Below are positions 1,335-33,961 of a DNA stretch of 33,961 nucleotides, one piece after another; the first letter of the stretch is position 1, and every line of letters starts with the position of its first letter. A program made the position numbers and the translations under genes. The stretch is from the NCBI GenBank assembly GCA_017853605.1, contig JAFMJG010000013.1, positions 1 through 33,961 on the forward strand, in the 5' to 3' direction. Origin of the DNA: a bacterium. GTDB taxonomy: Bacteria; Bdellovibrionota_C; UBA2361; OMII01. The notes under the pieces are model-generated. The model made no database searches. It was not told the origin of the DNA and saw only the letters and a list, made by a program, of their open reading frames with translations.

Positions 1335-2588
1335 ATGGCTAAGGACAACGGCAAGGGCAGCGGAAATCTCATCTGTTCCTTTTGCGGCAAGACTCAGGAG
1401 GAGGTCCGGAAGCTTGTTGCTGGGCCATCAGTCTACATCTGCGACGAGTGTGTCGACCTGTGCAATGACATCCTTACCGAGGAGTTTGATGGGCATGCCC
1501 ACCAAACTAACCGCCTGGCTGTCCCAACCCCAAAGGATATCAAGGCATCGCTCGATGACTACATCATCGGCCAGGAGCACGCGAAAAAGGTTCTCTCAGT
1601 TGCAGTGCACAACCACTACAAGCGCATCCAAAACAACCATGCAGCCAAGGGCGCAGTTGAGCTCCAGAAGTCGAACATCCTTCTGATTGGCCCGACAGGA
1701 TCGGGGAAGACTCTGCTTGCCCAGACGCTGGCGAGAATTCTTGACGTGCCGTTCACGATCGCGGACGCGACAAGCCTCACGGAAGCTGGCTACGTGGGTG
1801 AGGACGTAGAGAACATCATCGTGAACCTGCTGCAAGCGGCCGACTACGATATTGAAAAGACGCAGCGGGGCATCGTGTACATCGACGAGATAGACAAAAT
1901 CGCGCGCAAGAGCGACACCCCGTCGGTGACCCGCGATGTGTCGGGCGAAGGCGTGCAGCAAGCGCTGCTCAAAATCATTGAGGGGACGAAAGCGAACGTT
2001 CCGCCGAAGGGCGGCCGCAAGCATCCCCAACAGGACTTCATACAGGTTGACACCTCGAACATCCTCTTCATCGTTGGTGGGGCCTTCGATGGAATTGAGA
2101 GGATTATCAACCAGCGCAGCGGCAAGAAGGGCTTAGGCTTTGGCAACAACATCGTCCAGATGGCAGAGAAGCGGGAGAACCCGCTCGCGCTGCTTGAGAC
2201 GGAGGACCTGCTGAAGTTCGGGATGATTCCGGAGTTCATCGGGCGCCTGCCGGTCGTCTCAAGCCTTGAGCCGCTCGACCAGCCGGCGCTGATCGAGATC
2301 CTGACAAAGCCCAAGAACGCGCTCATCAAGCAGTACCAGACCCTGCTGTCAATGGAGGGGGTCGAGCTGACCTTCACCACAGAGGCTCTCGATGCTATCG
2401 CCAAAAAGGCTCTCGAGAAGAAGACAGGGGCCCGCGGACTACGGTCGATTATCGAGCACGCCATGCTTGAGGTCATGTACGACATCCCGAGCAACACGAG
2501 CGTGAAGGAGGTCATCATCACGCCGGATGTCATCAACGGCACGCAGCCTCCGATGAAGGTCTACCACAAGGAAGCGGTTGCCAGCTGA
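1335..2588 (+). CDS. clpX: ATP-dependent Clp protease ATP-binding subunit ClpX
   Basis: 417 aa; N-terminal zinc-binding domain [10 protein letters not shown]...[10 protein letters not shown], Walker A GPTGSGKT, Walker [29 protein letters not shown], pore [19 protein letters not shown]. Confidence 0.99.
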
Positions 2589-2597
2589 GGCAGCCGG

Positions 2598-3284
2598 CTA
2601 GCCTGGATTAAGGATCACGACCTCTACCCGGCGATTGCGGCGGCGGCCATCCTCCGTCCGGTTTGAAGCGATCGGATCCGTCTCGCCGAGGGCACGAAGC
2701 TGGATTCGGCGGGGGGCGATGCCGTTGTCGGCCAAGCTGTCGGCGACCGAGCGGGCGCGGGCGTCAGAGAGCCTATAGTTGTACTCGATGGTCCCGATCG
2801 AATCGGTGTGCCCCTCGACTGAAAGCTGGCGGCTCGGGGCGTTCTGCAGGGCGGCCGTGATCTCCCTGATGGTGGCTAGCGCAGCGGGAGTGAGCACGGC
2901 TTTGCCGAACTGAAACAGCACGTCGGGCAGGTTGATGACGACCCCTCTGGGTGAGTCCCGCACATCAACACCCTTGGCGCGAAGCTCCTCGAGCAGCCTC
3001 CTGTTCTCTTCTAGCACCGCTCCCTGCTGAGCGATGAGGGCATCTTGGTTATCCAGGCGCCTGTTCTCCCTGTCGAGCTGGGAGCCTATGAGGGCTCCCC
3101 CTAGGGCGCCTGCTGCAGCCCCTATAGCGACTCCCGCGCCGGTGTTGCCGGTTTGGTGGCCGATTATGGCGCCTAGCCCTGCGCCTGCTGCGGCTCCGCC
3201 GACTGCGCCCGCCTCGGTTGATCCAATTTGTCCGCCTTGGCAGGCCGAGAGGATGAGCAGCGCAGCAAACAGGGGTCTCCTCAT
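2598..3284 (-). CDS. OmpA-family lipoprotein with N-terminal glycine-zipper domain
   Basis: 228 aa; signal peptide with lipobox LSAC; VGGAAAGAGLGAIIGHQTGNTGAGVAIGAAAGALGGALIG; C-terminal OmpA peptidoglycan-binding motif EGHTDSIGTIEYNYRLSDARARSVADSLADNGI. Confidence 0.93.
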   Translation of the reverse strand: MRRPLFAALLILSACQGGQIGSTEAGAVGGAAAGAGLGAIIGHQTGNTGAGVAIGAAAGALGGALIGSQLDRENRRLDNQDALIAQQGAVLEENRRLLEELRAKGVDVRDSPRGVVINLPDVLFQFGKAVLTPAALATIREITAALQNAPSRQLSVEGHTDSIGTIEYNYRLSDARARSVADSLADNGIAPRRIQLRALGETDPIASNRTEDGRRRNRRVEVVILNPG

Positions 3285-3307
3285 GACATCAGCGCTCCTT
3301 GTAGCGG

Positions 3308-4276
3308 CTAAAACTTCTCTGGAGGGGAGGATTTCGCCCTTTCAATCCCATTCTTTGCAGACTGCAGTCCCGGGTTTTTCTTCAGCGCCTCCCTGAATTC
3401 ATACTGGGCATCGCTGTTGCGCCCCATGGCCAAGTAGACCTCGCCGAGCTCTGCGTGGTAGTTGGCGTTGCCTGGGCAGAGCCGCTGCGCGCGCCGGAGG
3501 TGGTAAAGCTTCTGGGAGATCTCTGAGGCTGCCTGCGCTGACTGGTCCTCTCCAGCTGCCTCCGCGCAGCTTCCCTCCTGCTGGGAGCTTGGCGCGAGGC
3601 CCGATGTGGTCGAGCTCTCAACCTCGACAATGTCGGTTTCTGTCATGCTCGTTCCTCCAGCGCGCTCCTCGACCGTGGTCTCGATGACCTCTGTTGTCTC
3701 CTGCTGCACAACTGGCGCCTTTGCCGCGCGCTTCGCTGCCGCTGGCTTTGCGGCGCCTTGGTAGCGGCCGCGCGGCTCAACATCGGTGCGCAGCGGGGCT
3801 GCTGCTGCGGCAGGCCTGGGAGCCGGGCCGCGCCTCTCTAGCTGAGCGAGCTTTCGCGCGGCCTCTGGCGACAGCGAGTGTTGTGATGGGCTGGGCAGGT
3901 AGTGGGAGCGTGAGGACGGCACAGCCACAGGAGGATCGGACTGAATGGCGCGGAGCTCGTCGATCTCCTGCCGCTGGGCCTGGATGAGCCGGTCCTGGCG
4001 TTCGAGAGCCTCGTCCTGGCTCTGGGCGGTCTCCTGCTGGGCCTGAAGGGCGTTGCCGATCAGCGCGCCGGTGGCTGCACCGGCAACAGCTCCTATCGCC
4101 AAGCCATTCCCTGCGTTGCCGGTCTGGTTCCCAACGATGGCGCCCAGCCCGGCACCGACGATTCCGCCGGTGGCTGAACCGATAGCGGTTGTCTGCTTCG
4201 GCTTAGTGCAGCCTGCAACCGTCGAGGCCACCACTAGGGATAGAGCGGAGTAGAAAAGGAGGGAGCGTTTTGCCAT
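3308..4276 (-). CDS. Glycine-zipper lipoprotein with C-terminal TPR-like region
   Basis: 322 aa; lipobox VAGC; glycine zipper VGAGLGAIVGNQTGNAGNGLAIGAVAGAATGALIG; C-terminal TPR-like ANYHAELGEVYLAMGRNSDAQYEFREALKKNPG. Confidence 0.85.
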   Translation of the reverse strand: MAKRSLLFYSALSLVVASTVAGCTKPKQTTAIGSATGGIVGAGLGAIVGNQTGNAGNGLAIGAVAGAATGALIGNALQAQQETAQSQDEALERQDRLIQAQRQEIDELRAIQSDPPVAVPSSRSHYLPSPSQHSLSPEAARKLAQLERRGPAPRPAAAAAPLRTDVEPRGRYQGAAKPAAAKRAAKAPVVQQETTEVIETTVEERAGGTSMTETDIVEVESSTTSGLAPSSQQEGSCAEAAGEDQSAQAASEISQKLYHLRRAQRLCPGNANYHAELGEVYLAMGRNSDAQYEFREALKKNPGLQSAKNGIERAKSSPPEKF

Positions 4277-4307
4277 CGTCAGGGCCTCTTAGTTGTTAGA
4301 TGTTTCT

Positions 4308-4706
4308 CTAGTCGCTAGATCCGGAGCCGTAGCGGTCGCTAAAGTACGCATCGTGGTACCGTTGCCGCCTGAGATCGTCAAGCTCGTCTTGCTGCTTGCG
4401 CATCTTTTCGGCCTGCAGCTCCATGAACTGCTTCTGCTCCTTCTCTGTTGCCTTCTTGGCGTCGTTCTTGTCGGAGCTGGCGCCGATCACTGCGCCGCCG
4501 AGCGCCCCCGTTGTGGCGCCCAAGGCAGCGCCCTCTCCAGCGTGACCGCTCGCCGAGCCGACTAAGGCGCCTGTTCCAGCACCGACCGCGCCGCCTATCG
4601 CGGCGCCCTCTGCCGTCGACTGAGAGCACCCACATGCAATGGCGGCTACCAGGGCCACTAAGGCCATTCTCGGGGCAACGGAGCTTGGCGTGCAGAAAAT
4701 CTTCAT
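4308..4706 (-). CDS. Small glycine-zipper lipoprotein with charged C-terminal helix
   Basis: 132 aa; lipobox near AIACGC; IGGAVGAGTGALVGSASGHAGEGAALGATTGALGGAVIG followed by KKATEKEQKQFMELQAEKMRKQQDELDDLRRQ. Internal start at M14 (about 4667) is also possible. Confidence 0.8.
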   Translation of the reverse strand: MKIFCTPSSVAPRMALVALVAAIACGCSQSTAEGAAIGGAVGAGTGALVGSASGHAGEGAALGATTGALGGAVIGASSDKNDAKKATEKEQKQFMELQAEKMRKQQDELDDLRRQRYHDAYFSDRYGSGSSD

Positions 4707-4920
4707 GGTCGTACCTCGAAGGCGCTATCCTAAGGGGGGCATACAGCCTCCCTAGGTATGGTATGGCAGACAATGCTAAGCCCGTGGTGTAACAGGACTA
4801 GATTGATCTGCGGCAGCCACGCACCACTACCAGGCGATACTAGAATCCAGCTTCATGAGCCGCAATCCAAAATAGGGCGCAAACGAGGCAGGCCGGTGCT
4901 CAAAGGGCATGGAGGGTTGC

Positions 4921-5457
4921 TTAGCCCGCTGCGTTGGGAGAGTCCGTTATAGTTCGTTTTGGCGCCGGAAGTAGGATGAGCACTGCCACGCCCACACAGA
5001 TAGCCGAGTCAGCGATGTTGAAGGCTGGCCAATGGTAGCTAGACCAGTAAAAGTCGAGAAAATCGACCACTCTGCCGTAGGTCAGCCGGTCAATGACGTT
5101 TCCCACCGCCCCGCCCATAATCGCCGCAAGTGCGCTCTGCGGAAGCCATCCCCTCTGGGCAGTCTGGCGGAGAAACACGAATACCACCGTCAGAGCCAAG
5201 AGGATTGTCAGGGCAAGCACGACTTGGCGTGGACCGTCCGCGAGATTTGACCAGAGGCCGAATGCTGCCCCCGGATTGAAGGCCAAGGTCATGTTGAAAA
5301 GGCCCGGGATCACCGGCAGAACTTCTCCCTCCTGGAAGTGCTTGAGCACCCAGAACTTCGAGACCTGATCAGCAAACGTGGTGCTTAAGGTGACCAGCGC
5401 CACGAGCAGCCAATTGATTTCGGAGCGGGTTGGCGTTGGTTGGCCTGAGGAGGTCAT
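4921..5457 (-). CDS. lspA: Lipoprotein signal peptidase (signal peptidase II)
   Basis: 178 aa membrane protein with LspA motifs FNPGAAFG, GGAVGNVIDRLTYGRVVDFLDFYW, WPAFNIADSAI (catalytic Asp pair). Confidence 0.96.
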   Translation of the reverse strand: MTSSGQPTPTRSEINWLLVALVTLSTTFADQVSKFWVLKHFQEGEVLPVIPGLFNMTLAFNPGAAFGLWSNLADGPRQVVLALTILLALTVVFVFLRQTAQRGWLPQSALAAIMGGAVGNVIDRLTYGRVVDFLDFYWSSYHWPAFNIADSAICVGVAVLILLPAPKRTITDSPNAAG

Positions 5458-5501: not shown

Positions 5502-6740
5502 TCAATAGTCAGAGTCCACGCGGCGCGGCGACTGCGGGGCCGGGAGCGGCAGTTCGACTTGGCGCGGCTTGGGAGTAAAGCCCTTGAGCGAGAGCTCCCC
5601 GACCTGGCCTGACTTCGTCGAAAAAACGACGTTGCCCGACGAGACAAAAAGCAGGTTACTTACGCCCCCAGATACCGTTTCCGAGTCGAGCTCCTGCATC
5701 GTGAAGGGCGATGCAGTCGCTGAAACTCCGTAGGAACTGTCTGGAGACAGCTCGTTTACCGTTAGCAGAGAATCCCGCCCAACGGATGCTATCCTGGCAC
5801 CGTCCCGAGAGATCGCGACAGACGAGACCCGGCCTGAATGAAGCTGGTGTCGTGCTGCGAGGGTGAATCCCCGAACCTCCCATACCTCTACGTACCCATC
5901 CTCGATGCCGAGAACGAGCCGCCGGCCGTCAGCAGACACGGCCAGGGAAGCGATGCCACGGTCTGGCTTGCGAAGAGCCCGCAGGGACGTTCCTACGTGC
6001 CCAAAGAAACGTCCCGGAGAGAGGTTTGTGTCATACGCGCCTCCCTGGTCATCAGCAGAATAGGGGAGCCATCCGATGAGCGTTCCGTCCCAGTCTGTCG
6101 AGAAGAAGGCCCGGTCGGATGGATGGCTGGCAACACCACTAATGAGCGTCTGGTGAGCAACGTAGCGCTCGAATGCGAGGTCTCGCTGCTTGTCGTCGCG
6201 CGCAGTCCTCTCGAGCTCGTAGTGCCAGCGGTAGACCCTGCCATCCGCCCCGGCTATCAGCACCGAAGTGTCCTTGTCGTGGAAGCTTAGCGCTACAGCC
6301 CTGGCTTTCAGCCGTTCAAGAGACCAGTCGGCCTTGCACTGCGCCAAGCAGCTCACCCGAACCCTTCCGCCATCCACGTATGCTACAAGGGGCAGTGTGG
6401 CTCCGATGGCTGCTATCTGCGGGTTGGAAGGAAGCTTCTTTAGCAGTTGGCCCGAGCCGCTTGGCAGGTCCCAAACGATCACGCTTCCGTCACTGGCAGC
6501 CGAGACAAGTTGGGGCGGTGAAGATGAGACCTCAGTGATGGCTAGCACCTCTCCGGCGTGCTGGGTGACCTGAGGCAAGGAGCCGACAGGGGTCCGCTCC
6601 CACGGTCGTATCTCGATTGATTCTAACGAGGTAGGCGACACCAGTGAGTTGGTAGCATCGAGTGCCTGCTGCGCTACCTGGCATCCGAGGAGCAGGAAGC
6701 ATGCAAGTGAGACCAGTGTAAATCTATAGTAATGCAGCAT
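5502..6740 (-). CDS. WD40-repeat lipoprotein
   Basis: 412 aa; lipobox LLGC; repeated beta-propeller-like segments such as LVSAASDGSVIVWDLPSG, RRLVLGIEDGYVEVWEVRG, ARIASVGRDSLLTVNEL. Confidence 0.85.
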   Translation of the reverse strand: MLHYYRFTLVSLACFLLLGCQVAQQALDATNSLVSPTSLESIEIRPWERTPVGSLPQVTQHAGEVLAITEVSSSPPQLVSAASDGSVIVWDLPSGSGQLLKKLPSNPQIAAIGATLPLVAYVDGGRVRVSCLAQCKADWSLERLKARAVALSFHDKDTSVLIAGADGRVYRWHYELERTARDDKQRDLAFERYVAHQTLISGVASHPSDRAFFSTDWDGTLIGWLPYSADDQGGAYDTNLSPGRFFGHVGTSLRALRKPDRGIASLAVSADGRRLVLGIEDGYVEVWEVRGFTLAARHQLHSGRVSSVAISRDGARIASVGRDSLLTVNELSPDSSYGVSATASPFTMQELDSETVSGGVSNLLFVSSGNVVFSTKSGQVGELSLKGFTPKPRQVELPLPAPQSPRRVDSDY

Positions 6741-7118: not shown

Positions 7119-7159
7119 AAGGCTCCTAAAAGCTAGTAACCTGTTCGATTAAAGGAGTC

Positions 7160-8614
7160 GTGGCACAGGATATGCAACACAGTTATTTTGAAGTTGGAAC
7201 GTCGCTTCTCGCAAAGCCTCAGGCGTTGTGTGATTTGGTTGAGATGGAAGCAGGGCACTCTATCCTGGTCTTCTGCAATTCGCCTTCGGACGCGGATTTT
7301 GCGGACGTGATTCTCAAGAAGCGCGGAATTTCATCGCTGAAGCTGATCGGGTACGTCCCGCAGATAAAGCTCAGCAAGGCGATTCAGCAGGTCCAGAAGA
7401 AAGAAGTTACAGCTCTCGTCCTCACGGATGTTGCCGCTCGTGGCGTGCCGCTGCAGGATTTTGATGTCGTGATCAACTACTCGATACCCGCAGACCCGGA
7501 GGTCTACTTCACGCGCTACGCGGCAGAGGGCGAGACCAAGACCAAGAAGGTTCTCAGCCTCGTGTCGGCTGTGGACCTCACTAACTTCCACTTCTTGAAC
7601 AAGCTTGCGAAGGTCGAGCTAGCAAAGGCTGAGCTGCCTTCTCCCGAGCAGGTGTTTATCGGCAAGTTTACCCAGCTACGGGACCAGGCGGTTGAGAAGG
7701 GGCTCCTGTCGGACAGTGGCCTCGCCCAGCTTGCGGACAAGGTGCTCGGAGACGGGAGCGCGCGAGATATCGTTGCCTTCCTGCTTCACAACACCATGAC
7801 GGTCATCCCGTCCCTCAAGGCGGCTTCTCCGGCGGCTCGTGATGAGCGCGAGGAGTACGGTGAGGGCGACGAGGAGGCAGAGGAGGGCGACGAGGATCGC
7901 CAGGACTTCGGGCGCCGTGGCGGCCGTGGTGGACGTGACCGGCGTGGCCGTGATCGCCGCGACCGTGGCGAGGGCCGCGGCAATCGGGATGATCGGGGCC
8001 CACGTGGTGCTGGCCGGTCGCAGGGCCAATTCGACGAAAACGATGAGCTTATCGATGATGACAGCCAGGCCCGCTTCCTTGGTGGCGGAGGAGACCTCGG
8101 CGATGGGTCGCGGCGCGGCCGAGGACGCGACCGAGACCGAGATCGCGGTCGCGGACGTGACCGCGATGGCGATGGCGGAGAGCGGCAGCCTCGGCAGCCG
8201 CGCCAGCCGCGTCCGCAGGTCGTGGTGGACAAGGAGGCCAGGCTCTACGTTGGCGCAGGGTCCAAGCAGGGGCTCTCAAAAGAGGCGATTCTGCAGAAGG
8301 TGGTCGATGTGTGCGGCGTGAGCGCAACCGACGTGCATCGCGTTGCGGTGCGTGGAGCGTACTCATTCGTTGACGTGCCTGAGGCGATCGCAGACCAGGT
8401 TGTTGATGGGCTGAGCTCATCAGAGTCGAGCGGCGGCAAGTCACTCTTTGTGAAGCGTGCCGTGACGCTGTCAATTCCCCGTGAGGGCGCTGCTCCGTCG
8501 GACGCAGAGAATTCGGACCCACACGGCGGTGCAGAGGCCAACGGCGCTCCGTCGGATGAGCCGATGGACTCTCACGATGGTCCGACGATGCTGGCGGTGG
8601 ACGAGCAGGGCTAA
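7160..8614 (+). CDS. Truncated DEAD-box helicase-like protein: RecA2 (helicase C) domain, RGG/RD-rich linker and DbpA-like RNA-binding domain
   Basis: GTG start with SD aaaggag. Motif IV-like ILVFCNSP, motif V-like ALVLTDVAARGV; motif VI position reads YFTRYAAEGETKTK instead of HRxGRxGR. RGG/RD-rich linker, then RLYVGAGSKQGLSKEAILQKVVDVCGV...YSFVDVPEAIADQVVDGL. No DEAD/Walker A domain present. Confidence 0.85.
   Translation: MAQDMQHSYFEVGTSLLAKPQALCDLVEMEAGHSILVFCNSPSDADFADVILKKRGISSLKLIGYVPQIKLSKAIQQVQKKEVTALVLTDVAARGVPLQDFDVVINYSIPADPEVYFTRYAAEGETKTKKVLSLVSAVDLTNFHFLNKLAKVELAKAELPSPEQVFIGKFTQLRDQAVEKGLLSDSGLAQLADKVLGDGSARDIVAFLLHNTMTVIPSLKAASPAARDEREEYGEGDEEAEEGDEDRQDFGRRGGRGGRDRRGRDRRDRGEGRGNRDDRGPRGAGRSQGQFDENDELIDDDSQARFLGGGGDLGDGSRRGRGRDRDRDRGRGRDRDGDGGERQPRQPRQPRPQVVVDKEARLYVGAGSKQGLSKEAILQKVVDVCGVSATDVHRVAVRGAYSFVDVPEAIADQVVDGLSSSESSGGKSLFVKRAVTLSIPREGAAPSDAENSDPHGGAEANGAPSDEPMDSHDGPTMLAVDEQG
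7905..8220 (+). repeat. Low-complexity coding region (RGG/RD/DR repeats)
   Basis: Runs of Arg/Gly/Asp codons, e.g. cgaccgagaccgagatcgcggtcgcggacgtgaccgcgatggcgatgg, encode GRDRDRDRGRGRDRDGDGG. Confidence 0.6.
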
Positions 8615-8636: not shown

Positions 8637-8690
8637 CTCGGGCGCCCCTGCCTCCCTATCTTGAGGAGGCAGGGGCGCCCGAGTTTTTTT
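8637..8690 (+). terminator. Intrinsic terminator
   Basis: Perfect 19-bp stem ctcgggcgcccctgcctcc / ggaggcaggggcgcccgag, 9-nt loop, followed by TTTTTTT. Confidence 0.95.
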
Positions 8691-28197: not shown

Positions 28198-28447
28198 CTG
28201 CCGGATCAGCAGCCTGAACGAGTTGTCCACAGCAAGCGGCGGAAGCGATTCGCTCATCAAACGCTGTTTAGCAAATTCACGGCGAAATTTCGTTTCATAG
28301 AACACCGGCTTAGTGCTAGGGTCGAAAGTTGGCTGTAAAACGTTGTGACCTCCGGCAGATCGCTTCGGCTCAGCCCGTAGTATTAACCCCCTAGTGTTGA
28401 GTACATCGTTTTAGGCAGCGTCACGCCGGTTGAGAGCCTCACTCTCT

Positions 28448-31153
28448 ATGGATCCCACCCCCGTTGAAAACCAGGCAAGCAGCGCGCAGCGCCAACCCCA
28501 AACGGGGGGAGCGCAAGCTGCTCGCGTTTCGCATGCTCCGCTCACTGATGAGGTGCTCCTCGAGGAGTCCTCAAAGCTTCTTGAGGCCTTCAAGATCATG
28601 GAAGGGAGGCGCCACTCCGTGGTCAGCCAGGTTCTCTCGTACGCTGAGTACCTCAAGAAAGTTCTCAGCGATCCTCGCTACATGATCAGGAACGTATTCC
28701 AGTACACCGCGGACGCGATGGAGTCCTTCGGCTTTACCAAGAAGACGGTCCTGGGCCAGGAGATTCTGGACTTCAATCTGCGCCAGTGGCCGTGGGAGTC
28801 GCGCCTCGTGGTTGACAAGAAGAAGCTTGAGGGGCAGGAGCTGGCGCTCTACGAGTACTACCAGCAGATGAAGCTCTTTGGCCGGCGAGAGTACTCGAAT
28901 CGCATGTTCGTGTTCCACGGGCCGCCCGGCTCCGGCAAGACCCGGCTCAACGACACCCTCGATGCGATGCTTGAGGATTACTCTGAGCACAATGAGCAGG
29001 GAGGCCTTTGGCGAATCGCCTTTGTCTTTCCTGAAGAAGCAGGCATGAAGCCGTACGGGTTCGCCGCAAACCAGGCTCGAAGCGCATCCGTTTCAGAGGA
29101 AGACACGCCGCAGGGGCGACAGCTCATCTACCGGCCCCTTGGGAACACCGATCCGCTGTTTCTGCTCTCAACCTCATGTGATGGGGAAGGGCCGAGGGAG
29201 AAGCTGCTCCAAAAGCTTGAGCAGCATGAGAGGCTGCCGCCGGACCTCAACAAGGACTACCTGCTTCGGGGCGAGCTCGACACCTTTTCAGAGGCTATTC
29301 TTGAGACCCTGATGAGCTACTACCGAAACGAGCACCTCTCCCAGTCTGGCTCACAGGGGCGGGTTCCTGATGCCCGAGTCCTGGAGGAGGTGCTGCGCAA
29401 GCATGTGCGAGTCGAGCGGTATACCCTCTCGCGGCGGCAGGGGCGCGGCCTCTGTTCGAAATGGGCTACCCCCAACCGGGATGCCGACATTGAGCCGTTT
29501 TATAATTCGTACTCGCCGCCGCCAGAGGAGATTCGGGCGGCAGAGCGCGACCTCTACATGCCGACGAGCTTCATGGTGCGCGCCAACCGTGGGCACCTCC
29601 ATTTCTCAGACCTCTTCCGCCCTGACGAGCGCGACCGTGGCCGCGACGACATCTCGCACCTGAACCACCTTCTCAATGAGATTGAGTCGGGGCACACGCA
29701 GATCGTGTCCCTTCGCCAGGCGGCCTCCCTAAAAACAGAGAAGGTCAACGTGCAGCTTCGGGCGGACGCGAATGACGAGCTGATCAGCCTCAAGACCCAC
29801 GCGCAAGGCTGGGACTCGCTTGGGCGGAGGCTTCAGTTTATCACCGTTCCCCACGTGGTCCGCTACCTCTCGGAAGCGTCCGCGCACAAGGACTTCTTCC
29901 GCACCATTCTCGGCGCAGACAGGGTCATCTGCCCGCACGTGCTCAACACGGTAGCGCTCTTTTCGACATCAACTAGGCTCCTCAAGCCGGATCCCGTGCG
30001 CTACAAGGCCGTGCACGAGCAGCTGCCGAAGATCCTGGGCCGAATGAGCGTGGTAGAGAAGGCGCTGCTCCTCCAGGAGCCGCGTGACGGCGTGAAGTCT
30101 GAGCTCAACATGCTCAAGTCAGACGAGAAGCTGCGCTGGCACCAGGATGAGCTCAGCGTCCTCGCGAAATTTCTTCCGAACATCGCAAACGAGTACATGG
30201 GTGGGGTGGGCGAGACAAAGTTCTCGCTCTATGACGGGGGCTTCGGCATCTCGACCGCCAACGCCCAGGATCTGCTGCGCAAGGTGGCTGTGTTTCGGCC
30301 CACTGAGCCGATCACGGTTCTTGAGGTGCTCGAGGTGCTCAAGCAGCAGGGGGACAAGTTCCCGTACTACGAGAAGATAGAGGAGGCCAAGAGGCAGCTC
30401 GCCCACGCGCGCCTCGAGGAGCGCAAGGAAGAGGGGCTTCGCAAAGGAAAGCAGATGTCCGAGAGGGACGTGCAGGAGTCCCTTAGGGAGATAGCCGACG
30501 TTGTTGAGAGGCAGTTCCCGATCCCTGCGCCCCAGGCAATCATCAAGGAGGTCGAGACCTACGCCAAAAAACGGATCCAGGATGACTTCTACTACGCGCT
30601 CGGCATCGCCAGCGAGGAGCGCAGCTCGCTCTCAATTCAGCGCTACCTCGCGCATGCGCGGGTGGCGATAGGGCAGCCTCCGCTGGAGGTGGAGCCGCAG
30701 CATCGCGTTACTGAGCAGGAGCGAAAACACAACGACAAGCTGCTTGAGGACTTTGAGGACCGGGTCGTGAAGGGCGAGGACCTCTCCTCAAAAGAGAGGC
30801 GCATGGCGTTCCGCAAGCACCTCTTCGAGCAGATCGGGTTCTGGCAGGCCGAGCACCCGAACGAGAGCGCAGCCGCCAATTACGAGAGCATCTTCGGCGA
30901 GCTCGTCGAGGGGCTGCGCGTGGTCCGTAAAGAGTCGCTGGAGCGGCCGCTGAGCGAGTTCGAGCGGCTGACGCGAGAGTATGCCGAAGACCCGCTTAAG
31001 ATCACCAGGGACATGGCCGGCAAGGAAGATGAGAGGCGCCGGGCGTCACGCTGGGCCAAAGCAATTAGGGTGCTCGAAGACACGCTGAAGTACCCGCGTG
31101 AAGAGCGCTGGGATACGATCCGCAAGCACCTCGAGTGGGCGATTCACGGTTAG
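28448..31153 (+). CDS. prkA: PrkA-family (AAA+ / serine protein kinase-like) protein, long form
   Basis: 901 aa from ATG 28448 (track start TTG 28430). Walker A FVFHGPPGSGKTRL; PrkA-like MVRANRGHLHFSDLFRP, GGFGISTANAQDLL; adjacent to spoVR and DUF444 genes. Confidence 0.85.
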   Translation: MDPTPVENQASSAQRQPQTGGAQAARVSHAPLTDEVLLEESSKLLEAFKIMEGRRHSVVSQVLSYAEYLKKVLSDPRYMIRNVFQYTADAMESFGFTKKTVLGQEILDFNLRQWPWESRLVVDKKKLEGQELALYEYYQQMKLFGRREYSNRMFVFHGPPGSGKTRLNDTLDAMLEDYSEHNEQGGLWRIAFVFPEEAGMKPYGFAANQARSASVSEEDTPQGRQLIYRPLGNTDPLFLLSTSCDGEGPREKLLQKLEQHERLPPDLNKDYLLRGELDTFSEAILETLMSYYRNEHLSQSGSQGRVPDARVLEEVLRKHVRVERYTLSRRQGRGLCSKWATPNRDADIEPFYNSYSPPPEEIRAAERDLYMPTSFMVRANRGHLHFSDLFRPDERDRGRDDISHLNHLLNEIESGHTQIVSLRQAASLKTEKVNVQLRADANDELISLKTHAQGWDSLGRRLQFITVPHVVRYLSEASAHKDFFRTILGADRVICPHVLNTVALFSTSTRLLKPDPVRYKAVHEQLPKILGRMSVVEKALLLQEPRDGVKSELNMLKSDEKLRWHQDELSVLAKFLPNIANEYMGGVGETKFSLYDGGFGISTANAQDLLRKVAVFRPTEPITVLEVLEVLKQQGDKFPYYEKIEEAKRQLAHARLEERKEEGLRKGKQMSERDVQESLREIADVVERQFPIPAPQAIIKEVETYAKKRIQDDFYYALGIASEERSSLSIQRYLAHARVAIGQPPLEVEPQHRVTEQERKHNDKLLEDFEDRVVKGEDLSSKERRMAFRKHLFEQIGFWQAEHPNESAAANYESIFGELVEGLRVVRKESLERPLSEFERLTREYAEDPLKITRDMAGKEDERRRASRWAKAIRVLEDTLKYPREERWDTIRKHLEWAIHG

Positions 31154-31166
31154 GGAGTTCGTAAGC

Positions 31167-32813
31167 ATGCCAGGCACCGAGCACAACAGGCCAGCACAGC
31201 AAGGAGGGATGCCTTCGCTTGAGACAGAGGAGCTTCGGCGCCACAAGCTTACAGTGAAGGAATTTGCAGGCTCCCGGGAGGCGCAGGAGCGGCTGATTCA
31301 GGGATGGAAGGAGGAGATCGAAGGGATCGTGCGGCAGGCCTGCCCCCTCGACTTCTACCGGCAGGAGTTTGTTGTTGTCTCGTGGAAGCAGCTCCAGGTG
31401 ATCCTTGCCAGGGAGGGCTTTCCGAAGCGGTACGAGCACTGGCGCTTCGGGCAGAACTTTGAGAGCCAGGCTGTTCGTGACACGTATGGGCTCGGGCGCA
31501 CCTATGAGCTCGTCATAAACACCGATCCGTGCATCGCGTACCTGCTCGACTCAAACTCGGTCCAGGAGACGCGCACGGTGATGGCGCACGTCTACTTCCA
31601 CAACATTTTCTTCAAGCACAATTCCTACTTCCAGTCGACCGACCGGCGCATGCTTGACAAGATGGGAGCCCACGCTGACCGAATCAAGCGTTACCAGGAG
31701 GACTATGGCCCAGACACGGTTGAGGCGTTTCTCGACACGTGCCTCTCGCTCGACAACCTGATTGATGTGCACTCAGTGGCCCTGCGCCGGACGCGGGATG
31801 AGGGGGCTCCTGGCCAGCGCCTCGAGCCGAAGGCCCTAGATCCGATACGGCCGGTAAGGTTCAACGTGCCCAGCTACCTAGACCGGTACGTAAACCCGCC
31901 CGAGGTGCTGCGGTCGCAGGTTGAGCGGGAGACCAAGGAGCGCGATCGCCGGCTCAAGATGGTGCCGCCAGAGCCGGAGCAGGACGTGCTGCTCTTCCTG
32001 CTCAAGCATGCGCCGCTCCAGGCTTGGCAACAGGACGTGCTGTCGATGGTGCGCGAGGAGTCGTACTACTTCGCCCCGCAGCGCATGACAAAGATCATGA
32101 ATGAAGGCTGGGCCAGCTACTGGCACTCAAGGCTGATGACTGAGCACCTGCTACCCCGCTATCCCTCGGAAACTGTCGATTACTGCGAGTTCAATGCCGG
32201 CGTCCTCCAGCCATGGGGCGAAAGCATCAACCCCTACAGGTTTGGTGTCCGGCTGCTTCGGGACATTGAGGACCGCTGGAACAAAGGGAAGTTCGGCCAG
32301 GAATGGGACAGCTGCCGCGACATGGAGGCCCGCAGGAGCTGGGACAGGAAGCTCGGGCAGGGAGCCGAAGAGGTAATGAGGGCGATGGTGACCCACAACG
32401 ACCTGACCTTTATCCACCGCTACTTGACGCCGGAATTTTGCGCCGAGAACGGCTTTCACATTCATGAGAAGGACAGTGATGGGGACACCTTTGTCTCCTC
32501 CGAAGAGTTTCTGGAGATCCGCGCGATGCTCCTGAAGTCCCTCACCAACATGGGCCAGCCGAAGCTCGCGGTGCTCAATGCAAACCACGGCAATCGCGGT
32601 GAGCTCGTGCTCTTCCACTCTTTTGACGGGCAGGAGCTCAAAATGGACTTCTGCGCTGCGACCTGCCGGAACCTCTTTAGGCTCTGGTCCAGGCCCGTGC
32701 ATGTGCTCACTGAAAACAAGGATGGTGCACACATCAAGCTCTCCTTCGATGGCAGCGCATTCAAGAGCGACACGGACAGCGAAGATTTTGCCCGTTACTA
32801 TTCGGAGGACTAG
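31167..32813 (+). CDS. spoVR: SpoVR family protein
   Basis: 548 aa; DFYRQEFVVVSWKQLQVILAREGFPKRYEHWRFGQNFE, INTDPCIAYLLDSNSVQETRTVMAHVYFHNIFFKHN, MTKIMNEGWASYWHSRLM, NPYRFGVRLLRDIEDRWNKGKFG. Confidence 0.96.
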   Translation: MPGTEHNRPAQQGGMPSLETEELRRHKLTVKEFAGSREAQERLIQGWKEEIEGIVRQACPLDFYRQEFVVVSWKQLQVILAREGFPKRYEHWRFGQNFESQAVRDTYGLGRTYELVINTDPCIAYLLDSNSVQETRTVMAHVYFHNIFFKHNSYFQSTDRRMLDKMGAHADRIKRYQEDYGPDTVEAFLDTCLSLDNLIDVHSVALRRTRDEGAPGQRLEPKALDPIRPVRFNVPSYLDRYVNPPEVLRSQVERETKERDRRLKMVPPEPEQDVLLFLLKHAPLQAWQQDVLSMVREESYYFAPQRMTKIMNEGWASYWHSRLMTEHLLPRYPSETVDYCEFNAGVLQPWGESINPYRFGVRLLRDIEDRWNKGKFGQEWDSCRDMEARRSWDRKLGQGAEEVMRAMVTHNDLTFIHRYLTPEFCAENGFHIHEKDSDGDTFVSSEEFLEIRAMLLKSLTNMGQPKLAVLNANHGNRGELVLFHSFDGQELKMDFCAATCRNLFRLWSRPVHVLTENKDGAHIKLSFDGSAFKSDTDSEDFARYYSED

Positions 32814-32819
32814 GCAGCG

Positions 32820-33961
32820 ATGGGGAATGAGCTAGAGCCACAGAAATCCGGCCCACCTGAAGCGCAGCGGGGATCAGTGTCGCTTGAGACCTCATCGCTG
32901 GGGATCGAGCCGGACGTGCGCCGCTTTCGCGAGATCGTAAAGGGCAAGGTGCGCGAGGATCTCAAGGACTACATCACGAGCGACGACATTATCGCGCAGC
33001 ATGGGCAGGATGTCATAAGCGTGCCGGTCAAGGAGATCTCCCTGCCGCGTTTCGTCTTCGGTTCCAACGAGCAGGGCCTGGGCGAGGGCGAAGGTGATGG
33101 CGATGGGCAGGGCTCCCCAGGACAGGGCAAGGGAAGAAAAGGCGGCACAGGCGAGGGAAAGCATGCCAGGGAGGAGAAGTTCCACATTGAGGAGCTCGCA
33201 GACCTTCTTGGCGACGAGCTAAAGCTGCCCCGCATCACGCCCCGGCTCACATCTGGGCTAGAGGAGGCTGTGCCGCGTTACCAGAGCATCTCTCGCCACG
33301 GCCCTCCCTCGCTGCGCGATCACCGTAGAACCTTCCGCGAGGCGCTGAAGCGAAGCATTGCCGAGGGCACGTACGACGTGAACGACCCGGTGGTTACCCC
33401 CATCAAGGAAGACTTTCGGTACCGCGCAGAGCGCCTCAAGCCGAGGCCGAAGACGAATGCGGTCATTTTCTATGTGATCGACGTCTCGGGCTCCATGGGA
33501 GAGCTCGAGAAGTCTCTCGCGCGAAACACGGCATTCTGGATCGACGCCTGGATAGACCGGCAGTACAAGAGCACCGAGAAGTGCTACATCATTCACGACG
33601 TTCATGCCAAGGTCGTGGACAGGGACACGTTCTTCACCACGCGAGAGGCGGGCGGCACGGCAATTTCGTCCGCATACCAGGTCGCAAAAGAGCAGATGGC
33701 GACCCGCTTCCCGCCGGATGAGTGGAATATTTACCTCTTTCACTTCTCGGATGGCGACAACAGCTCCCAAATCGATGACGCGCGGGCAGTCGACCTGCTG
33801 AAGGAGAGCATCCTGCCGAAGGCCAACCTGTTTGGCTACGTCGAGGTCGGGTCCCACCACGGTGGCGGCGGGTTTATTCGGGTGCTGGGGTCGGCGTTCG
33901 ACGATGAGGAATCGGTTGTCTTGACCACCATGAACGGGCGCAAGGATATTATTCCCGCGAT
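32820..33961 (+). CDS. DUF444 (YeaH/YhbH) family protein with VWA-like MIDAS motif, 3' truncated by window end
   Basis: My translation from ATG 32820 is open to the window end: VRRFREIVKGKVREDLKDYITSDDIIAQHGQDVISVPVKEISLPRFVFG...FYVIDVSGSMGELEKSLAR...EAGGTAISSAYQVAKEQM...WNIYLFHFSDGDN. Missing from the supplied ORF track. Confidence 0.95.
   Translation, partial: MGNELEPQKSGPPEAQRGSVSLETSSLGIEPDVRRFREIVKGKVREDLKDYITSDDIIAQHGQDVISVPVKEISLPRFVFGSNEQGLGEGEGDGDGQGSPGQGKGRKGGTGEGKHAREEKFHIEELADLLGDELKLPRITPRLTSGLEEAVPRYQSISRHGPPSLRDHRRTFREALKRSIAEGTYDVNDPVVTPIKEDFRYRAERLKPRPKTNAVIFYVIDVSGSMGELEKSLARNTAFWIDAWIDRQYKSTEKCYIIHDVHAKVVDRDTFFTTREAGGTAISSAYQVAKEQMATRFPPDEWNIYLFHFSDGDNSSQIDDARAVDLLKESILPKANLFGYVEVGSHHGGGGFIRVLGSAFDDEESVVLTTMNGRKDIIPA

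Follow-up and report, generated by a model that had tools for sequence, protein, structure and literature searches.

A motorless DEAD-box derivative kept across a bacterial order: an apparent ancient pseudohelicase with a predicted RNA-binding role

Enzymes that have lost catalysis and are still in use are well known among kinases and much less so among RNA helicases. The pseudohelicases that we found in the literature either still have the two RecA domains or belong to the DNA helicases (PMC9539457, PMC4504706). Utp25 of the yeast SSU processome resembles the protein described here in being a conserved, DEAD-box-derived pseudohelicase that functions without helicase motifs, but it is eukaryotic, keeps both RecA domains, carries its accessory sequence as a disordered N-terminal part and has no reported DbpA domain (PMC9539457). 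PriA from Deinococcus radiodurans is a bacterial pseudohelicase that, according to its authors, lacks ATPase and unwinding activity while nucleic-acid binding and partner contact are kept; it belongs, however, to a DNA helicase family, and its motifs are degenerate rather than removed with a whole domain (PMC4504706). The helicases with a DbpA domain (PMC8190605) share RecA2, a basic linker and the C-terminal DbpA domain with our protein and, via full-length homologs in its class, also its ancestry, whereas RecA1, Walker A, DEAD, SAT and the arginine fingers are missing here and the contacts of YxiN to hairpin 92 are not conserved. A construct of E. coli DbpA comprising RecA2 and RRM (PDB 7bbb), which was matched in our search, is a man-made counterpart of the natural domain pair, though excised from an active enzyme. 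The open-access literature searched yielded no bacterial DEAD-box pseudohelicase that had dropped the whole of RecA1 and been retained throughout an order.

The window, that is the whole stretch of 33,961 nucleotides analysed, is an entire contig of a 3.0-Mb draft genome in 220 contigs (lineage Bdellovibrionota_C; UBA2361; OMII01). Unless indicated otherwise, the features given below lie on its plus strand. The frame at 7160-8614, from which a sequence-only reading had set out, is intact and open, but a later start is indicated. Translation from the GTG at 7160 would give four extra residues, none of which is conserved among relatives, one relative (L034) has an in-frame stop immediately before the conserved ATG, and the alignment reveals an AAGGAG...CAGGATATG segment kept across four genomes of the genus, so that the ATG at 7172 is most likely the start codon. 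The AAGGAG itself (7152..7157), conserved in the same four genomes, resembles a ribosome-binding site. The coding sequence accordingly spans 7172..8614 and specifies 480 amino acids.

As that reading had proposed, the protein begins in what is normally the second RecA domain: Pfam reports Helicase_C (PF00271, 3.6e-16, residues 19-116) and DbpA (PF03880, 3.1e-11, above cut-off, residues 361-427) and no DEAD domain, and none of the RecA1 motifs Q, I (GSGKT), Ia, Ib, II (DEAD) and III (SAT) is present. Within RecA2 (7172..7669), two of the motifs by which a DEAD-box domain of this kind is recognised are readily identified. Motif IV, LVFCNSPSD (7265..7291; canonical FCNTKSD), carries a lysine-to-proline replacement found in 96% of the pseudohelicases, and motif V, LTDVAARGVP (7421..7450), is kept apart from a final aspartate-to-proline change. 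The third, motif VI (HRxGRxGR, canonical form Y.HRTGRTGRAG), was rightly set apart from these two; it reads YFTRYAAEGET (7505..7537), in which the tyrosine and the first arginine are retained and the arginine fingers and glycines are gone. The linker and C-terminal RNA-binding domain noticed earlier are likewise present. An acidic, RGG/RD-rich linker (7835..8233), predicted to be disordered with low pLDDT at residues 181-352, leads to a DbpA-type RNA-binding domain with RRM-like fold (8240..8443). Its best Foldseek match, read for this part only, is the RNA-binding domain of YxiN with 23S rRNA (3moj, TM 0.80 by target length). AlphaFold was run on the whole protein and on RecA2 alone with an input of four sequences, which accounts for its low confidence: RecA2 reached a pLDDT of 45-48, and the DbpA part, at about 80, is the sole usable portion.

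Two short peptides stand out in otherwise fast-evolving disordered parts. The C-terminus carries GPTMLAVDEQG (8579..8611), a candidate docking motif conserved as PT(M/L/F)LAVDE in all ten genus orthologs, and a DDDSQARFLG-like peptide around 8020-8090 in the linker recurs in most of them; both may possibly serve in partner docking.

The missing domain is not hidden in the flank. The distance to the divergent gene, which starts at 6740, amounts to 419 nt from the GTG and 431 nt from the ATG, close to the 420 nt originally estimated as too short for RecA1; between relatives this gap differs by insertions and deletions and shows no alignment of coding type, and a search of the 1.2 kb upstream of the gene detected no remnant of RecA1. 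Downstream, a strong intrinsic-terminator-like hairpin with a 19-bp GC-rich stem, a 9-nt loop and a following T7 tract was read from the sequence at 8637..8690; the hairpin scan, with its loop limit of 8 nt, had missed it. An Rfam search of the window returned no RNA family.

Orthologs occur in 26 of the 29 genomes of the order (25 relatives and the window's own). In the three genomes that lack it the assembly is incomplete (84-88%), and all 13 of good quality have a match. Four further half-helicases of the same type were found in other families of the class (L074, L077, L078, L170). Helicase_C is recognised in all 26 order orthologs and DbpA in 25. DEAD is matched in merely two (L021, 1.8e-8; L029, 3.9e-7), both without a working Walker A and without the DEAD motif, so that an intact DEAD domain is found in none; the suspicion that orthologs might all carry it, with the window copy alone being truncated, is thereby removed. 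Ten full-length proteins from the rest of the class have DEAD, Helicase_C and DbpA throughout. In addition, 14 genes of the order encode a motor paralog with DEAD and Helicase_C in every case and DbpA in none, exemplified by a 415-residue protein with all canonical motifs (G000 C80:8971-10215); the activity of full-length and motor relatives is inferred from such intact motifs. Motor paralog and pseudohelicase occur together in G000 and about 13 other order genomes, where their genes are unlinked.

The proposed derivation from a helicase is borne out by a RecA2 tree and by the locus, which together show that the window protein and its orthologs share common descent with a full-length DEAD-box-RGG-DbpA helicase. 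In the tree (70 proteins) all 26 pseudohelicases of the order group with three class halves in a single clade (97/82). This clade is united with the full-length and motor genes at 100/100 support, to the exclusion of 17 further DEAD-box proteins from these genomes. The motor paralogs share 53-58% identity with the full-length class helicases and at most 45% with other DEAD-box genes. The inner branching of full-length, motor and pseudohelicase proteins is not fixed by this tree (AU p 0.33 for motor plus pseudohelicase). The divergent neighbour, a gene for a WD40 beta-propeller lipoprotein with the lipobox LLLGC (5502..6740, minus strand), is present at all 25 pseudohelicase loci compared and at L170, at 8 of 11 full-length class loci and at none of 14 motor loci. 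Because this neighbour is common to pseudohelicase and full-length loci and never accompanies the motor gene, the pseudohelicase appears to be the copy at the ancestral locus.

Living relatives preserve a series of stages in the decay of the motor. The intact type (L079-L083 and others) is followed by proteins with a motif-dead but recognisable RecA1 (L021, L029), by others in which RecA1 is barely detectable and requires a family profile (L045, L028, L008, L009, L024), by a group with about 200 unrecognisable residues in its place (L016, L017, L020, L022, L023) and finally by those without it, namely the window protein, seven genus relatives, L014, L015, L018, L019, L025, L031 and the class halves. 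On the tree, seven changes are needed to explain which proteins have an N-terminal region of RecA1 size, and this region was therefore probably lost several times. In genome G025 a half-helicase without RecA1 (L014:1303-2892, plus strand) still has a near-canonical motif VI, HRMGRTGNAG; domain loss and motif decay therefore appear to have followed no single fixed order and to have differed between lineages. One chromosomal locus holds, in different living relatives, the intact type, intermediates with dead motifs and the form that has no motor at all, and a motor-only sister gene exists in addition. This series would allow the ATP-requiring functions of DbpA/CsdA-type helicases to be told apart directly from those for which RNA binding suffices.

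What has been left of the protein is strongly constrained. Among the close relatives G000, G002 and G007, dN/dS after Nei-Gojobori is 0.03-0.07 for RecA2, the most constrained part, 0.05-0.06 for DbpA, 0.11-0.14 for the RGG linker and 0.11-0.44 for the tail; for DbpA the range given for close relatives overall is 0.05-0.13. Since synonymous divergence is high and many pairs come close to saturation at synonymous sites, these absolute ratios are rough. The motor paralog in G000, G002 and G007 gives 0.06-0.09, similar to RecA2 of the pseudohelicase. The RecA1 remnant of L008 and L009, on the other hand, has a pN of 0.28 (dN/dS 0.17), compared with a pN of 0.047 for RecA2 in these two. Judged by these values, RecA2, linker and DbpA domain are kept under purifying selection and pseudogene status is excluded; low dN/dS, retention throughout the order and intact frames in independent genomes agree with the earlier view that this is no fresh pseudogene. 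In RecA2, active-type and pseudohelicase proteins have 19 conserved positions in common, six have undergone a fixed switch in the pseudohelicases (K to P42, R to K53, R to K61, S to G64, L to V66, A to V131) and eleven are newly conserved in the pseudohelicases only. Such clade-specific fixed replacements together with newly conserved residues suggest a function that is changed but constrained.

The explanation that we favour is a functional pseudohelicase of ancient origin that would serve, independently of ATP, as an RNA chaperone or as a factor in RNP assembly. For this statement as a whole, function included, we would put the probability at roughly 0.6; descent from a helicase and the non-catalytic state, taken for themselves, appear close to certain. 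Walker A, DEAD, SAT and the arginine fingers of motif VI are missing from the window protein and, according to the motif table, from nearly all orthologs, in line with the non-catalytic nature originally postulated. Because these elements, including both arginine fingers, are missing, no ATP site should be able to form, and the pseudohelicase is presumably unable to hydrolyse ATP or to unwind RNA. Comparison shows that class relatives carry, divergent from a WD40 gene, a full-length DEAD-box RNA helicase (RecA1, RecA2, RGG linker, DbpA). In the lineage of the order, the copy at that locus lost its ATP-binding and arginine-finger motifs and its RecA1 eroded, several lineages including that of the window dropped RecA1 entirely, and a paralog elsewhere retained the motor but no DbpA domain. 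The DbpA domain and the RGG/RD linker are the predicted sites of RNA binding and may together hold structured RNA; the remodelled RecA2 could offer a second docking surface for RNA or protein, and the ribosome would be the most likely RNP concerned. The role as RNA chaperone or regulator, which had been suggested from the start, is thus retained as a proposal. The selection on RecA2, linker and DbpA suggests that a remnant without a motor does a useful, engine-free job on RNA. In its widest form, as a lineage-wide chaperone or assembly factor that arose by stepwise removal of a DEAD-box motor, with RecA2 turned into a binding module and motor and RNA-targeting domains divided between two genes in part of the lineage, the proposal is a tentative one to which we would give somewhat less than even odds.

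Which RNA might be bound is indicated only in outline. In YxiN, K427, G423 and T424 recognise hairpin 92 of the 23S rRNA (PMC3695512), and these residues align with D, Q and K of the window protein in a weak alignment (E 0.95). Since the contact residues are not conserved, specificity for hairpin 92 was rejected as a working assumption and this hairpin is a doubtful target. CsdA does not bind hairpin 92 (PMC8190605), and for this reason a broader, CsdA-like role appears more likely, by analogy, than a target specific to DbpA or YxiN.

It is conceivable, if rather unlikely, that the pseudohelicase instead serves the motor paralog as a subunit for specificity or regulation, with the motorless DbpA carrier recruiting the DbpA-less DEAD and Helicase_C protein to RNA in trans. 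The two paralogs are strictly complementary in domain content and present together in the 14 or so genomes mentioned above, and the short C-terminal peptide conserved in the genus could dock a partner. However, the two genes are unlinked, and six genomes of family f4 as well as G013, G016 and the class genomes G029, G035, G036 and G038 have the pseudohelicase without a detectable motor paralog. Because several families and the class halves thus lack the presumed partner, the subunit model is attractive in the window's genome but not general.

Less probable still is mere retention of the ancestral cellular role, for example in 50S assembly or cold adaptation, for which RNA binding would have sufficed and unwinding been irrelevant, without any new function. 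Locus and C-terminal domains are those of the full-length ancestor type, and Deinococcus PriA, a pseudohelicase that still binds DNA and contacts its partner, provides a precedent (PMC4504706). The fixed, clade-specific replacements and newly conserved residues in RecA2 do not, however, look like plain retention.

That the protein is one half of a split helicase, reassembled into an active enzyme with RecA1 from another gene, is very improbable. A conserved split helicase from a different family (Ski2-like DEVH) is indeed encoded in the window's genome, but its front half, the only RecA1-only protein recognised among the DEAD hits examined, has its own RecA2 gene directly downstream, and motif VI, which RecA2 must contribute for hydrolysis, is destroyed in the window protein and in nearly all orthologs. 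Truncation by assembly or sequencing, a frameshift or a decaying pseudogene can practically be dismissed, for although the window stems from a draft genome in many contigs, genomes of independent origin have the same architecture at 61-82% identity, with frames that are intact and dN/dS values that are low.

The Ski2-like helicase (PTGSGKT, DEVH) is split into two adjacent plus-strand genes (G000:C25, L041:1396-2244 and 2244-3446), the RecA2 protein opening at or beside the RecA1 stop codon and the RecA1 protein bearing an RG-rich tail in the genus. Its short frame, of 257-298 amino acids, is found in 11 of 12 genomes of the genus and in 12 of 13 other genomes of the order and class (L172-L185 in relatives). 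Beside the pseudohelicase locus, three tandem genes for glycine-zipper proteins, one with an OmpA domain, are followed by lspA for signal peptidase II (window 2598-5457, minus strand), an arrangement conserved in most genomes of the order. Near the end of the window (28430-33959, plus strand) genes for a PrkA-like protein, SpoVR and a DUF444 protein lie in a row, a well-known cluster of the PrkA-SpoVR-YeaH type.
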